In this document: positions 11,599-46,806 of the stretch, in pieces
How the letters are laid out: every line of letters begins with the position of its first letter
Numbering within the stretch: position 1 is the first letter of the stretch
NCBI RefSeq assembly: GCF_900291465.1
Contig: NZ_LT985808.1
Coordinates: 1,543,912 to 1,607,911 of the forward strand
Direction of reading: 5' to 3'
Source: Bacteroides sp. Marseille-P3684
GTDB lineage: Bacteria; Bacteroidota; Bacteroidia; Bacteroidales; Bacteroidaceae
DNA: 64,000 nucleotides
Notes under the pieces: generated by a model
What the model saw: the letters and a program-made list of their open reading frames with translations, nothing else
What the model was told of the DNA's origin: nothing
Databases searched by the model: none
Position numbers and translations under genes: made by a program

Positions 11599-12084
11599 TC
11601 AGAAGTCTTGGTTCGTCTCTTCCTTCTTCTCCCTATCCGATTCCGGGAAGGCTTGAGGGGGCGTACTGCCCTGTAGTTGGTCGATGTGTCGGTATCCCAA
11701 GTTCTCGAGCAGTGCCCACAGTGCGGTACTACGGGTGGTGCTGCGTTTGGCAGCCGTACGGAAATAGAGTCTGGGGACAGACTGTTGGGGAAAGACCTCA
11801 TCCGGGGTCTCCGCCCCATTGCCTTGCGACCTCAGCCGAATCCGGAAAGTCCCGATACCGTCGAGTTCCACCACTTCGGAGGCAACCAGATGCTTCCGCA
11901 TGACGGTGATGAGGTTGTCGATGGTGCTTTTGACGTCACCTGCCGTGAGCGAAGAATACTCCGCGATTTCTTTTGCCAGTTGGGCAGTGGTTACGATTCC
12001 CATGCTGATGATGGACGGATGGTAGAGCTTCTTGCCTTCCTTCGTTGCCCTGCTCGCTTGTTTTACCTTGTAGATTAGAGCCAT
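11599..12084 (-). CDS. HU-HIG type DNA-binding protein
   Basis: 161 residues, close to the Bacteroidales HU-HIG pattern: an N-terminal part MALIYKVKQASRATKEGKKLYHPSIIS followed by an HU-like core, TTAQLAKEIAEYSSLTAGDVKSTIDNLITVMRKHLVASEVVELDGIGTFRIRLRSQG, which ends in the strand where HU proteins enter the DNA-binding arm. The C-terminal 40 residues are low-complexity and charged. These proteins are nucleoid-associated; most genomes of the order have many paralogues. It is a monocistron with a terminator close behind. A 1-kb non-coding stretch lies upstream. Confidence 0.85.
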   Translation of the reverse strand: MALIYKVKQASRATKEGKKLYHPSIISMGIVTTAQLAKEIAEYSSLTAGDVKSTIDNLITVMRKHLVASEVVELDGIGTFRIRLRSQGNGAETPDEVFPQQSVPRLYFRTAAKRSTTRSTALWALLENLGYRHIDQLQGSTPPQAFPESDREKKEETNQDF

Positions 12085-12292: not shown

Positions 12293-12323
12293 TGTAGGGG
12301 CGAGCGGTCTGCTCGCCCGGTCC
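12293..12323. repeat. REP-like hairpin, copy 1
   Basis: The core GGGCGAGC...GCTCGCCC folds around GGTCT. It differs from the copy at 46776-46806 by paired substitutions that keep the stem. A tandem CCGGTCCTCATAAT pair follows. Confidence 0.75.
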
Positions 12324-12422
12324 TCATAATCCGGTCCTCATAATATAATAAGGTATAGTGTGGCTCCTGGTTAGGTTCTCTTTTTACACCCCTCTCTATC
12401 AAATTGTCATTCTCCCGTCCAC

Positions 12423-12960
12423 TTTGTCTTTTTGTCAAACGAATCGCTCCAGACGGGCTTCTTTCGGAGCAAAATACTTGGCGGTGGATTTGGAGGGCAT
12501 TCTCAGGCGATTCGCAAAATACACAATGATGAAGATTGGGTGATTGTCTTGTCAATGGAGTAGGCGTTGTGCACTTGTTGTGTTCTTTTCGTCAGATGAA
12601 AGGTAGTTCCTATGAGCACATTCATAGTTGGAAAAATGGGCGTATGATAAGCAAACTGGAAGTAAATGAGTGTGAAATTCAGTTTATTATTGTTGCTTGT
12701 CAGCAAAAACAAATGTTCGAATCACGAAACAATATTGTTTCACTTGCCAAACAATATTGTTTGACGGATGAAACACTTGTGTTTGACGAGCCAAACAATA
12801 TTGTTTGCGTGAATAAACATGCAACTTTGAGCCTTGAATGGAATGTTTATGCGTTAGGAAACGTATGTTTATTCTTAAAATAACCTACTTTGCTCCGTTT
12901 CTCAAAAATATGCGTTAGCTGGAAATGGCAATAGGACTAGATCTGTCAAGCAAATCTTCT
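12423..12960 (-). repeat. Composite intergenic element, copy 1 (inverted)
   Basis: Read on the minus strand, this stretch repeats the order found at 31526-32092 and 46193-46760: a CTTGACAGAT / GCTAACGC block, the palindrome array, then a block GTGTATTTTGCGAATCGCC...GATTCGTTTGACA. Spacing differs from the other two copies by about 10 to 20 bp, so this copy has small indels. It fills the non-coding gap between the HU-HIG gene and the RloB gene. No convincing reading frame crosses it. Confidence 0.7.
12727..12806. repeat. Palindrome array 1, 22-bp period
   Basis: Units at 12727, 12749, 12771 and 12793, each 14 bp: AAACAATATTGTTT three times and AAACACTTGTGTTT once (third position). The 8-bp spacers (CACTTGCC, GACGGATG, GACGAGCC) are GC-richer and differ from one another. 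No T-run follows. Confidence 0.9.
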
Positions 12961-13128
12961 GTTTTGCTTTCTTTCTGTTCGGTGAAATGTTTACAGGAGA
13001 GGTAGGTTGGGCTGCCGGAGGTCAGGCACTCGTGTATTTGTTTTTAGTCAGCTGCCGGTTCACTTACTTTCCTGATTGCTTTATAAATCTCGCTATAGGA
13101 ATCACGACCTCTATATTTCTCAGCCAAT

Positions 13129-13629
13129 TCACATGCCTTGTTCATCTTTTTCGTCTGCAAGCATGTCTCTGACCCATTTGTCTTTTTCAAGATATTTGCG
13201 TGTCTTGTCGTATGCAGGCAGATAGTGTTTCAAAGCCTTTTCTGTTGCTGCTGAATCCTTGAAATGGCGACACGTATCTTCAAAGTGCAGTAAGAACCAG
13301 TATTCTATGGACTGCAAGCTGTCGCATAGAATCACATTTTTATTCTTTTCATATTTGTTTTTGAGTGCTACCATCTTTTTGTTTTCTGCCTCAGAGCGTC
13401 TGCTGACATCGGCATCAAAAACACAGATGACAAAAACATCTTCATCAAGCAGCTCCTTGATTTTCTTCTCAATCTTCTCGATACTGTTGTTCTCGAACAG
13501 GCGTGGGGAGATGGAGTATCTATAATCAAGTAGTTTCTTCAGGTGGCTGAAATAGAACAACTCCGTCAGTCCTTCACCTACAATATGAATGACTTGTCGG
13601 GTGGCAGTGTGTTTGCTGGCTTTTCTCAT
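13129..13629 (-). CDS. rloB: RloB-like TOPRIM protein, frameshifted near the C-terminus
   Basis: 166 residues as read. RloB/AbiLii proteins carry a TOPRIM-like nuclease fold; here VGEGLTELFYF provides the conserved glutamates and VCVFDADVSRR the DxD. They act with a preceding SMC-like ATPase in phage defence (AbiL/RloAB); the present gene follows RloA by 12 bp on the same strand. The frame ends abruptly (LADEKDEQGM). One base fewer in the A5 run (plus-strand T5, 13147-13151) would continue as KMNKACELAEKYRGRDSYS to a stop at 13044, giving 194 residues, nearer to family length. So the gene has either lost its last 33 residues by a 1-base insertion or the base is a sequence error. GC content is lower than in the flanking genes. 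Confidence 0.82.
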   Translation of the reverse strand: MRKASKHTATRQVIHIVGEGLTELFYFSHLKKLLDYRYSISPRLFENNSIEKIEKKIKELLDEDVFVICVFDADVSRRSEAENKKMVALKNKYEKNKNVILCDSLQSIEYWFLLHFEDTCRHFKDSAATEKALKHYLPAYDKTRKYLEKDKWVRDMLADEKDEQGM

Positions 13630-13641
13630 GAGACTGGTTGA

Positions 13642-14850
13642 TTATAAGTTAGGGACTGCACCGAATTTACCGAATTTATAGGCTTTCCGGAGAGAACTGA
13701 TCCGGTTCAGTCCCTTGAAATCTGTCAAAGGATAAAGGACACTGGAGCCGTCTGTATTTTTTTCCGTAAACCAGATGGTGTCTTTCCGAAGTAAATCGTC
13801 CTCCTCCAACAGACCGTCATAATGTGTGGTGAGCAACAGTTGTGCTTGTTCGGATTCTTTCAGGAAGCGTTCGATGATGTATTCGATGAGCTTGGGATGT
13901 AGGGAGGATTCAATCTCATCGACAGCAAGGAAAGCATTGTTTTCAAGGGCCTTTTGCACTTGGGCTGCCAGTCCGAAAGTTCGGATGGTGCCATCTGACT
14001 CAAACATCTCCGGAAATTCATAAAAATCGGATGCCCCATCGTCTGAAAAGACCTGATGCTGATAGATGGTGGCATTGACCGTACCTCTTTTTGTCTTCTG
14101 CTCTTTGGAGCTAATGTTGGAGATGTTGAAATCGGCTTCCTGCAAGTATCTCAGTATATACTCTTTCGCCGATTCATCCTTAATCGATTCTTCCGCATAC
14201 CGGTTCAGTGGTGAGGTCGGAACGACGGCAGGCATGATCCGTCCTGTCAGATACTGAAGTACGGTTTCCAATTCCGCAAGGTGGCTATTTACCTGCATGT
14301 AGGCAGCAAACACAGACATGTTTTGCAGGCATTTCAGGGTTATCTCTTCTTTGACGGCTTGTGTAGCTTTGATTCGTTGTCCGAATCTGATGACAGACAC
14401 GCCGTTCTCCGTACTTCTTTCAAAGATGGTAGCAGGCTGTTGGCTGGGGTAATAGGCCAGTGTCTCTTTTGCCACATGTGTGTGGTCCAAAGCAACGGAA
14501 TAGACATAACGGGTGGTTTTTCTGTCTGTTGTCAGGTAGAATGAAATGGAATATTCGGACAGGAGCTTCCGGTTGTCTGAATTCAGGAGGAAGGGGAGCA
14601 CCGGTATCTGTTCAGCCTTGTTTAGAGGGGTATAGGTGATGAATGATTTCAGGAAGTCACAGATTTTGATGATGTTGCTTTTGCCGGAAGCATTTGCTCC
14701 ATAGACTACGGCGATTTTTAAGAGTCTGACATTTTTGTCCAGCTCTATTACATGATAGGCTTCCATGTCTTTGCTCTTGTCAGCCTCGAAGCTCAATACG
14801 GTCTCATCCCTGAACGAAAAGAGGTTTTTGAACTTAATCTCTGCTATCAT
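13642..14850 (-). CDS. rloA: RloA-like AAA (ABC/SMC-type) ATPase
   Basis: 402 residues. MIAEIKFKNLFSFRDETVLSFEA opens like other AAA15/AAA21 ATPases; the Walker A is VVYGANASGKSNIIK (about 48-62), the Walker B AFLAVDEIESSLHPKLIEYI (about 305-324) and the switch histidine TTHYDGLLEEDDLL. The middle portion is the variable insert. In defence systems such as AbiL, PARIS and RloAB, an ATPase of this kind senses infection and releases a partner nuclease; the RloB partner follows at once. It has its own -7 element. Both genes are visibly poorer in GC than manA or the HU-HIG gene, which fits arrival by horizontal transfer. The specific trigger is not deducible. Confidence 0.87.
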   Translation of the reverse strand: MIAEIKFKNLFSFRDETVLSFEADKSKDMEAYHVIELDKNVRLLKIAVVYGANASGKSNIIKICDFLKSFITYTPLNKAEQIPVLPFLLNSDNRKLLSEYSISFYLTTDRKTTRYVYSVALDHTHVAKETLAYYPSQQPATIFERSTENGVSVIRFGQRIKATQAVKEEITLKCLQNMSVFAAYMQVNSHLAELETVLQYLTGRIMPAVVPTSPLNRYAEESIKDESAKEYILRYLQEADFNISNISSKEQKTKRGTVNATIYQHQVFSDDGASDFYEFPEMFESDGTIRTFGLAAQVQKALENNAFLAVDEIESSLHPKLIEYIIERFLKESEQAQLLLTTHYDGLLEEDDLLRKDTIWFTEKNTDGSSVLYPLTDFKGLNRISSLRKAYKFGKFGAVPNL

Positions 14851-31525: not shown

Positions 31526-32092
31526 TTGTCAAAAAGCAACCATTTTCCTCCTTCCGCTTGACAGATTTTGTTCAATCGTCCTTTTCTGCTAACGCGTACT
31601 TTTCAAAAATCCGATAAGCTGGAGACGAAACGTGAATGATTGCAAACGAAACGCACGGAAAAAGCCTTTGATTTTAGAAAACTATACATTTCATTTCCGG
31701 AATATGGACAAAACGTGCCCGGAACAATATTGTTTCGCGCGCCAAACAATATAGTTTGAGGCGTCAAACAATATAGTTTCACCTGCCAAACTCTATTGTT
31801 TCGTGCCCGGAAGTCAAATCTTTGGAAAATGAAACGCAAAAACACCGGGTTTCACTCTCCAGAAGGAGTGCCGTGTCAACAAATTGGAAGGTAATAAAAT
31901 GTGTTGGATTGGGAGCAGGGGATGTTCGCGTGGAAGCCGGATGCCCTCTGAATGCCCTATCAGGATAGCTTTTCCGGTGAATCGGTAGCAAGGTGTATTT
32001 TGCGAATCACCCGAGAAGGGCCTCGGAATCCACCCAATCGTATTTTGGTGCGAGCAGGCTCTCTGTGGAGCGATTCGTTTGACATTTTGTCA
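31526..32092 (+). repeat. Composite intergenic element, copy 2
   Basis: Starts with TTGTCAAAAAGCAACCATT (31526-31544) and ends with GTTTGACATTTTGTCA (to 32092). Distances from the first palindrome to both ends match those of copy 3 to within 1 bp over 567 bp. Blocks include GCTAACGC, the palindrome array, AACACCGGGTTTCACTCTCC and the TGTATTTTGCGAATC segment. It lies between the divergent SusC and leuA operons. No reading frame is shared by the copies. Confidence 0.75.
31722..31823. repeat. Palindrome array 2, 22-bp period
   Basis: 14-bp units start at 31722, 31744, 31766 and 31788 (GAACAATATTGTTT, AAACAATATAGTTT twice, AAACTCTATTGTTT), and a degenerate fifth at 31810 (GAAGTCAAATCTTT). Every step is exactly 22 bp. 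Spacers are 8 bp and GC-rich (CGCGCGCC, GAGGCGTC, CACCTGCC). Confidence 0.9.
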
Positions 32093-32172
32093 GAAGGGAA
32101 GGGAATGTTGGTGAAAAAACAATACGTTCTGACAGAATTAAAGAAAATGCGATAAAAAAGTAACATATTATT

Positions 32173-32224: not shown

Positions 32225-32311
32225 ATGATACAGAACAGTCTGCATATTCTAGGTCTGAACATTTCCATTATTCTACTGGCGAAGGTCGGCGGAAGTGGGT
32301 GTTGCGCTTAG
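32225..32311 (+). CDS. Ile/Leu-rich leader peptide of the leucine operon
   Basis: A 28-codon frame: MIQNSLHILGLNISIILL and then AKVGGSGCCA. It has five leucine, five isoleucine and one valine codons, with ATT ATT CTA CTG in a row, and lies between the operon promoter and a hairpin terminator. This is the arrangement of amino acid attenuators: slow translation when charged Leu- or Ile-tRNA is scarce would leave GGAAGTG (32291-32297) free to pair with CACTTCC (32350-32356), breaking the terminator. Too short to be called by normal gene finding. Function inferred from position and composition. Confidence 0.8.
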   Translation: MIQNSLHILGLNISIILLAKVGGSGCCA

Positions 32312-32338
32312 AATCGTGTATGACGATGAAGATACATG

Positions 32339-32374
32339 AAAGCCTTTCTCACTTCCGGGTGCGAAAGGCTTTTT
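32339..32374 (+). terminator. Attenuator terminator ahead of leuA
   Basis: AAAGCCTTTC (32339-32348) pairs with GAAAGGCTTT (32363-32372), with a CAC/GTG extension in the loop; a T-run follows. It ends about 42 bp before the leuA ATG. Confidence 0.85.
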
Positions 32375-38704: not shown

Positions 38705-38837
38705 AGGGACAGACCTGGAACAAGCCGGCCTTAGACAGACCAAAGTATTATACTTAGCCTGCCTAAGTATTATACTTAGGGTGCCAAAGTATTATACTTA
38801 GGTCTGTCTAAGTGGCGGTTTAACCGGGTCTGTCCCT
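38705..38837. repeat. Palindrome array 4: different core, 22-bp period, nested inverted repeats
   Basis: Three 13-bp palindromes AAGTATTATACTT start at 38743, 38765 and 38787, exactly 22 bp apart. Around them CTTAGACAGACC (38730-38741) is the exact complement of GGTCTGTCTAAG (38801-38812), and further out AGGGACAGACC (38705-38715) matches GGTCTGTCCCT (38827-38837). It lies between leuB and the TlpA gene. It shares no obvious sequence with the AAACAATATTGTTT arrays beyond the period. Confidence 0.9.
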
Positions 38838-46192: not shown

Positions 46193-46760
46193 TTGTCAAA
46201 AAGCAACCATTCCCACTGTTTCCTCTTGACAAATTTGCGGAAATGCACCTTTTGTGCTAACTCGTCTTTTCTCAAATCCGCTTAAACTAGCGTTCAATTG
46301 CAAATGAATACAAACGAAAATGCTCTAAAAAGCCTCTTGTTTTAGAAAACTATACAGTTGAATTTCGGAATCCTTACGTTTTAACGTCCAAACAATGTTG
46401 TTTCACGCGTCAAACAATATTGTTTGGCGAGTCAAACACATTAGTTTCACCTCTCAAACAATATTGTTTCGTCCGCGAAAGTCCAATCTTTGGAAAATGG
46501 AATGCAAAAACACCGGGTTTCACTCTCCAGAAGGTGAGTGGTGTAAACAAATCGGAAGGTTTCGTTATGCGTGGTGTATGTATCTTCCGATGTCTGTCGG
46601 GAAAGGTCCTGTGTCTGTAAGGTTTCAGAATAATGCCATTCCGTGTACATCTGCATCCATGTGTATTTTGCGAATCGCCCGAGAAGGGCCTTGGAATCCA
46701 CCAAACTGTATTTTGGTGCGAGGAAAGGCACTGTGGAAGGCTTCGTTTGACAAAATGTCA
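46193..46760 (+). repeat. Composite intergenic element, copy 3
   Basis: Starts with the 19 bp identical to copy 2 (TTGTCAAAAAGCAACCATT, 46193-46211) and ends with GTTTGACAAAATGTCA (to 46760). First palindrome to the right end is 370 bp, identical to copy 2. The right end carries TGACA-AAA-TGTCA where copy 2 has TGACA-TTT-TGTCA: the 3-bp centre changed and the palindrome arms did not. It fills the non-coding space after the TPR gene. Confidence 0.75.
46390..46491. repeat. Palindrome array 3, 22-bp period
   Basis: 14-bp units at 46390, 46412, 46434 and 46456 (AAACAATGTTGTTT, AAACAATATTGTTT, AAACACATTAGTTT, AAACAATATTGTTT) and a degenerate fifth at 46478 (AAAGTCCAATCTTT). The spacers are CACGCGTC, GGCGAGTC, CACCTCTC and CGTCCGCG. 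Confidence 0.9.
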
Positions 46761-46775
46761 AAAGTGATTTGGAAA

Positions 46776-46806
46776 TGTAGGGGCGACCGGTCTGGTCGCC
46801 CGGTCC
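46776..46806. repeat. REP-like hairpin, copy 2
   Basis: GGGCGACC...GGTCGCCC around GGTCT, inside the same 31-bp frame as the copy at 12293-12323. The stem differs at one base pair on each arm, C:G here against G:C there, so the pairing is kept. Confidence 0.8.

Follow-up and report, generated by a model that had tools for sequence, protein, structure and literature searches.

An array of short palindromes lies at 12727-12806 of the window, the whole 64,000-nucleotide stretch of the Bacteroides sp. Marseille-P3684 chromosome analysed here. A gene for a HU-HIG type DNA-binding protein (11599-12084) adjoins it, as a matter of neighbourhood only. Beside the array, at 13129-14850, a RloB-like gene adjoins a gene for an AAA (AbiEii-like) ATPase, and the two may form a defence pair of RloAB type. 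At 12294-12318 and again at 46777-46801 stands GTAGGGGCGASCGGTCTGSTCGCCC, a hairpin repeat with a GTAG foot, both arms of which have changed together between the copies; it looks to us like a canonical REP, although the source genome shows no match to a REP-associated tyrosine transposase (RAYT). Farther along, a short Ile/Leu-rich ORF followed by a hairpin-like stretch (32226-32370) precedes a leuA-like gene and appears similar in congeners by eye, and is presumably an attenuator leader. The arrays and element copies found in the window are the following.

12417-12985, minus strand: whole copy 1 (type A), with approximate ends, from the right-end block and the left-end motif
12423-12536, minus strand: right-end block of copy 1, GTGTATTTTGCGAATCGCC ... 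GATTCGTTTGACA, 204 bp from the array (within-window BLAST and pattern)
12727-12806, unstranded: reported array of four AAACN6GTTT units with cores AATATT, AATATT, ACTTGT and AATATT at a 22-bp step (pattern scan)
12815-12828, unstranded: degenerate in-phase unit AAACATGCAACTTT beside the reported array (three-palindrome scan)
31526-32099, plus strand: copy 2 (type B) (BLAST)
31722-31801, unstranded: array of copy 2, GAACAATATTGTTT and three AAACN6GTTT units at a 22-bp step (pattern and palindrome scans)
31993-32099, plus strand: right-end block of copy 2 (BLAST and pattern)
38742-38799, unstranded: fourth 22-bp ladder of the window, with another palindrome, AAGTATTATACTT, three times (lag-22 detection)
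46193-46767, plus strand: copy 3 (type B scaffold) (BLAST)
46390-46469, unstranded: array of copy 3, four AAACN6GTTT units at a 22-bp step (pattern scan)

The first-pass annotation had placed four palindromes with a 22-bp period at this locus, and the AAACN6GTTT units indeed start at exactly 12727, 12749, 12771 and 12793, separated by the 8-bp spacers CACTTGCC, GACGGATG and GACGAGCC. The third unit, AAACACTTGTGTTT, had been described as changed in both halves with its symmetry kept; it does show a symmetric change of one base pair, from A.T to C.G, but T.T now stands at its centre, which leaves an imperfect palindrome. In the whole window we found 11 AAACN6GTTT sites against 0.96 expected (at most 4 in 100 shuffles), and all 11 fall in three arrays of 22-bp step, at 12727-12806, 31744-31801 and 46390-46469; at 31722, one more unit, slightly degenerate, brings the second array to four. 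Among periods 16-29, only 22 gave loci in a three-palindrome scan of the window. The AAGTATTATACTT repeat of the ladder at 38742-38799 is the same one that forms the middle of the type C elements described below. The arrays are also, as had been stated, unlike CRISPR, since units of 14 bp with 8-bp spacers contrast with CRISPR repeats of about 23-50 bp and unique spacers of similar length.

The 22-bp step holds throughout the source genome (G000, 3.71 Mb; main contig 3,706,277), and the genome-wide scan that had been proposed gave 219 pairs and 120 triples of AAACN6GTTT. A backward-pattern control gave 25 pairs and 9 triples, and by reasoning it is not independent, as it reads the same arrays across their spacers.

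Rather than being a lone regulatory site, the array occupies the centre of a copy of an element, non-coding and intergenic, that measures about 570 bp. Within-window BLAST aligned copies 2 and 3, arrays included, over 586 columns at 73.7% identity, and the first copy has the end block common to these two in the opposite direction; by eye against the consensus, its left-end motif TTTGCTTGACAG lies on the minus strand near 12950-12985. When the end-block pattern was searched with up to 3 mismatches, 87 matches were obtained in the source genome (45 and 42 on the two strands), against none for the control. We count about 92 element copies with an end block on the 3.7-Mb chromosome and 11 further arrays, of type C, without one. 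Among the 56 distinct arrays first extracted, 51 have the end block and the remaining 5 are of type C. None of 51 arrays falls inside a called gene (our own codon-bias gene caller); the ends of two genes reach 1-5 bp into the element at its right side, and in all 12 copies with a gene within 100 bp of that end, the 3' end of the gene points towards the element. It is near certain that the feature is an interspersed element without coding function that contains dyad sites in a helix-phased row.

The copies fall into several types. Types A and B have in common about 90 bp of the left end and 105 bp of the right, while type D has the same ends and a middle of unrelated palindromes, TACGGACGCGTCCG/TACCGACGTGTCCG, again at 22 bp, and type C consists of arms of AAAC units beside a run of 22-bp AAGTATAATACTT repeats. 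The 15 end blocks lacking an exact array were sorted by eye into 12 of type D, a degenerate type A copy (L216), L212 and L204 (truncated), and no gene-bearing copy was recognised among them. In L212 (G000 C1:962300-968300), the end block, as read by eye, comes directly after an ORF resembling a transposase gene, which may have inserted into one copy.

Last unit and end block are separated by 192-195 bp in 39 of 55 copies, by 213-215 bp in 13 and by 202-204 bp in 3, three classes that differ by about one helix turn. The first array of the window belongs to the 202-204 class, whose three copies may share one origin. Between array and block lies a spacer of about 82 bp whose length is kept and whose sequence is not: it is near-random, with a divergence between copies of 0.67 against 0.74 for flanking DNA. 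In the same comparison, of 416 of the 435 pairs among 30 type B copies, the divergence is 0.14 for the array and 0.22 for both the middle and the end block. Twelve closer pairs show 0.20 for the spacer, 0.07 for the array, 0.11 for the middle and 0.12 for the end. L012, L016, L019 and L025 form a recent subfamily of similar copies with spacer divergences of 0.06-0.17; in the pairs of L012 with the other three, the middle (0.19-0.23) is more divergent than the spacer (0.06-0.12), which points to mosaic exchange between copies, and the conservation could be partly gene conversion. The 22-bp step and the distances of about 193, 203 and 214 bp between array and block agree with the earlier proposal that the phasing sets every site on the same face of DNA for cooperative binding, although they do not prove it. 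An RNA element was considered and rejected, as the window has no Rfam match and the variable spacer of 30 copies has no covarying helix. RNAalifold likewise gave no consensus structure for the right block of 51 copies; in type D copies, a long hairpin is seen by eye in that block.

We then consider the units themselves. In 35 four-unit arrays, 94 of the 140 N6 cores are perfectly palindromic and 33 are ACTTGT/ACAAGT, and the order of the cores in type A is largely position-specific. By eye, the whole array or one unit is inverted relative to its flanks in several copies (L044, L055 and L058; L060 and L061; L042 and L043). The 8-bp spacers of the same 35 arrays are more self-complementary than after shuffling of letters within each spacer (1.49 of 4 pairs against 0.99 +- 0.08), and spacers 1 and 3 pair with each other at 3.54 of 8 positions against 2.08 when shuffled, whereas pairing does not extend into the flanks beyond the array (2.14 of 8 against 2.00 shuffled). 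As single strands, the arrays fold well (z of -4.1, -2.7 and -5.9). An apparent avoidance of self-complementarity in the spacers (1.49 against 1.90 of 4 in a between-element permutation) was withdrawn: homologous copies occur in either orientation, which biases this control, and the sign reverses with within-spacer shuffles, so that self-complementarity no longer argues against a hairpin. The spacer symmetry and the folding are compatible both with extended dimer sites and with a hairpin.

Along the chromosome, the copies avoid one another at short distances. For 103 positions (87 end-block matches and 16 arrays without a block, 11 of them of type C, with the tandem pair at 3314272-3314969 entered once), there is one gap below 8 kb against 20.4 at random and none below 5 kb against 13.3. 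In the list of 89 arrays, 2 gaps are below 8 kb against 15.5. Beyond 2.97 Mb, the arrays derive from BLAST rows only and may be incomplete. A null restricted to intergenic sites, in which the 19 intergenic sites of the window were tiled over the chromosome, gave 20.4 +- 3.7 gaps below 8 kb, with 7 as the lowest of 4000 draws. The avoidance extends across subfamilies with different arrays, types C and D included. Since sparse stretches exist, the coefficient of variation (CV) of the gaps is not unusual for the whole chromosome (1.03 against 0.99); between 0.9 and 1.91 Mb it is 0.46 against 0.97. The copies show no origin/terminus pattern, as they flank dnaA and also occur near the opposite point, and no strand bias relative to the replichore (41/46). 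The short-gap avoidance is a non-random placement, as looked for in chromosome-organising sites of the MatP/SlmA kind. Selection against recombination between close copies could also produce such spacing, but neighbours closer than 20 kb (8 in the same and 12 in opposite orientation) have no clear bias towards the opposite one, and the avoidance holds between subfamilies too.

The element is narrowly confined. AAACN6GTTT triples were found in one of the 41 genomes searched, the source genome, and element DNA in one of 151 genomes of the family, while the end block, with 84 matches in the source, is found in none of 14 congeners and as single matches in 2 of 236 other genomes of the family. Upstream of leuA, the element aligns in none of 13 congeners; because the left neighbour gene differs in G008, G003 and G010 (upstream sequence read by eye), this locus is no clean empty site. 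In an uncultured Bacteroides bin (E20__bin320), one locus (L113) appears by eye to carry a type C array and flanks nearly as those of L084, at about 335 kb in the source genome; it is the only array locus in the bin, and its contig may have strayed there from a closely related genome.

Ladders of other sequences are more widespread. A scan of an 84,980-species collection returned 33 stretches with a triple, sorted by eye into 20 variable-spacer arrays, 10 plain minisatellites and 3 unclear cases; a viral collection, scanned with a viral origin in mind, returned 3. The palindromes of the 20 arrays are mostly species-specific, and the hosts include Parabacteroides massiliensis, Porphyromonas sp. 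COT-239, Prevotella UBA2746 and Reichenbachiella agariperforans, with 16, 16, 10 and 8 pairs, respectively, against 0 for the control; six further genomes have 4, 3, 2, 4, 2 and 2 pairs against 1, 0, 1, 0, 0 and 3. Ladders were also detected de novo as stretches of self-identity at lag 22 (44-bp window with at least 29 identities), which catches plain minisatellites as well; 28 of 57 such loci exceed all 20 symmetry controls and the remaining 29 do not. The congener G008 has 26 lag-22 loci in 318 kb, with 0-3 at the nine other lags tested, and their sequence (CATATG/GCTCGYGAGC) is unrelated to the AAACN6GTTT arrays. G010 has 14 loci at lag 22 and 8 at lag 21 in 480 kb, G023 has 6 in 40 kb, G017 has 3 in 25 kb, and G016, G019 and G022 have 1 each. 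The congener G006 (60 kb) shows no clear peak (2 at 22, 3 at 21 and 1-2 at 23, 25, 26 and 28), and lag 22 gave no locus in 120 kb of G009, 38 kb of G015, 160 kb from four genomes belonging to other families of the order or 50 kb of E. coli. The check in close relatives that had been suggested thus divides: the array itself is absent from 14 congeners, and some of the sampled congeners have a 21-22-bp step in other sequences. In G010, four loci (L291, L294, L296 and L297) belong to a 21-bp ladder family (TATCCTTAGNCTGAGGATATG), several copies of which end in AAAGTTTATCC and GGATAAACTTT, and whole copies look like inverted repeats.

The ladders of G008 are also set apart. With 39 of 43 lag-22 loci kept as one motif family, 452 kb contain 39 ladders with no gap below 4 kb against 10.7 at random and a CV of 0.60 against 0.96. 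Under an intergenic null (region midpoints, for the 36 of 39 ladders that lie in a called intergenic region; the other 3 lie in none), there is one gap below 4 kb against 6.2-8.2 (P of about 0.003 or less), and the CV is not unusual (P 0.24-0.27). Avoidance of the next intergenic region is seen only when regions of at least 60 bp are eligible (2 against 7.0) and is gone at 120 bp (9 against 10.3) and 200 bp (15 against 15.1). In both G008 and G010, tandem, divergent and convergent gaps appear to contain ladders alike. Ladders of the same 22-bp step in different letters, set apart on the chromosome, suggest a DNA-binding protein that forms rows.

We favour, tentatively, the possibility that the array copies anchor the chromosome at spaced positions, each as a row of double-stranded sites for protein dimers; a mobile family of MITE type comes next, and REP/RAYT hairpins third. 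Each 22-bp unit would be the double-stranded site for one dimer of a candidate protein, with three to five dimers side by side on one face of DNA, and the row would cooperate with another factor located on the right-end block, such that the distance from array to block has to fit the helix turn while the intervening sequence is free. Host-level selection would hold the copies as spaced anchors of loop, segregation or supercoil domains, and protein and sites would change together, giving each species its own palindromes. This anchor role draws on the exact genome-wide step, the unrelated type D palindromes at the same step between the same ends, a spacer far more divergent (0.67) than the array (0.14) and the end block (0.22), the helix-spaced distances, the exclusion of all 51 arrays from genes, the gap avoidance, that in G008 included, and the ladders of G008 and G010 in gene gaps of all three kinds. 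Against it, the analysis found no cognate protein and no origin/terminus pattern, the avoidance in G008 is weaker under the intergenic null, one tandem pair exists, some copies are recent duplicates, in three of the closest pairs the middle is more divergent than the spacer, and the spacer self-complementarity above chance is also predicted by a hairpin. Because the element is absent from 14 congeners, and the sampled 120 kb of G009 and 38 kb of G015 have no lag-22 ladder, such a role cannot be essential in the family.

Nearly as likely, the copies are a non-autonomous MITE-like family, with a transposase that binds array and ends, transposition immunity behind the spacing and a transpososome behind the geometry. 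The element is indeed shorter than 1 kb (about 570 bp), non-coding, multi-copy (87 end-block matches) and intergenic (0 of 51 in genes), as MITEs are, and TGTCA/TTGACA motifs are shared by both ends, of which the left is variable. Its restriction to one species, the recent subfamily of L012, L016, L019 and L025 and its absence upstream of leuA in 13 congeners agree with mobility, as does an array embedded in a repeat, like that of the Porphyromonas gingivalis BrickBuilt elements (PMC4596501). However, no target-site duplication was called in the flanks inspected, where the element ends are too soft to define one, no transposase partner was found, and the leuA locus is not a clean empty site. 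Furthermore, most pairs are near saturation in the spacer yet alike in array and ends, unlike dead copies, and the avoidance between subfamilies with different arrays is not what such a family predicts.

It is improbable that the arrays are REP elements which a RAYT of Bacteroidetes type recognises as single-stranded hairpins. Three of the 8 NF047646 matches of Reichenbachiella (G176), RAYT-like genes on C8, C5 and C14 (the C8 protein scores 106 bits), have a palindromic 22-bp ladder at a distance of about 0.25-0.5 kb, and a fourth is accompanied by a plain 22-bp repeat. This fits the report in PMC6006769 of a Bacteroidetes RAYT subclass (2.6) flanked by atypical structures with copies elsewhere, and the single-stranded folding of the arrays and their self-complementary spacers point in the same direction. 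On the other hand, G000, G008, G010 and nine others of 18 genomes have no RAYT match (PF01797 and NF047646 both give 0 in G000), G000 and G010 have no Y1 transposase, and the 1.5 kb on either side of the RAYTs in G003, G177 and G173, and of 4 of the 8 in G176, contain no ladder. Pairing within the arrays does not reach the flanks, and the GTAG foot (5' GT[AG]G) was not seen at the window arrays.

A purely mutational origin, in which template switching at quasi-palindromes makes or corrects dyads and inverts units with no selection, agrees with the units and whole arrays seen by eye to be inverted in several copies, but is highly improbable, as it leaves unexplained the 21-22-bp step of unrelated sequences, the fixed-length spacer and the avoidance between copies. 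Least credible are operators of an ordinary transcription regulator, which would have palindromes and same-face phasing, but hardly as many as some 92 copies, lying alike between tandem, divergent and convergent genes.

Taking the spaced anchor of dimer rows further, some Bacteroidales might possess a fast-evolving anchoring system, an intergenic dimer-site ladder every 10-40 kb whose geometry is kept and whose sequence is replaced across species and subfamilies. This geometry would comprise a dyad about every helix turn, the 21-22-bp step and the helix-phased distance to a second site. We regard this wider proposal as somewhat unlikely as a whole. Chromosome organisation in Bacteroidota is poorly known; about 92 spaced, helix-phased elements with a spacer fixed in length and free in sequence can be used directly as bait to identify the protein, and related species whose ladders keep the step in different letters are a natural experiment for reading the co-evolution of protein and site. 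If the copies are a mobile family, it would be of a MITE- or REP-like kind with copies that stay 4-9 kb from one another, which is also unusual. Our literature search recognised no description of 22-bp palindrome ladders, most subscription journals being outside its coverage.

The sites of matS/MatP, SlmA and parS/ParB are palindromic protein sites scattered over the chromosome, and the element resembles them in its dispersed palindromic sites; it differs in having 3-5 sites in a row at a fixed step, within a larger element and with no origin/terminus bias. With the REP elements of RAYT subclass 2.6, as described in PMC6006769, it has in common that both are short palindromic intergenic repeats of species-specific sequence, whereas the element is a row of loop-less palindromes in a larger unit, with no GTAG foot and no RAYT match in its genome. 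The closest described element to the ladders is BrickBuilt of P. gingivalis, as described in PMC4596501: both are intergenic and non-coding, have a limited host range and scattered copies, and place short-period repeats in their centre, flanked by a leader and a tail that are conserved. BrickBuilt is there given as 19 copies with 1 to 22.8 tandem 23-nt units each, without spacers and with the non-palindromic consensus AGAYCATARTATCCTCTCRTRTG. The element lies outside that definition by its 22-bp step and palindromic units, and is distinguished by having mostly 3-4 such units with position-specific cores, a fixed distance to the end block and about 92 copies that avoid one another.
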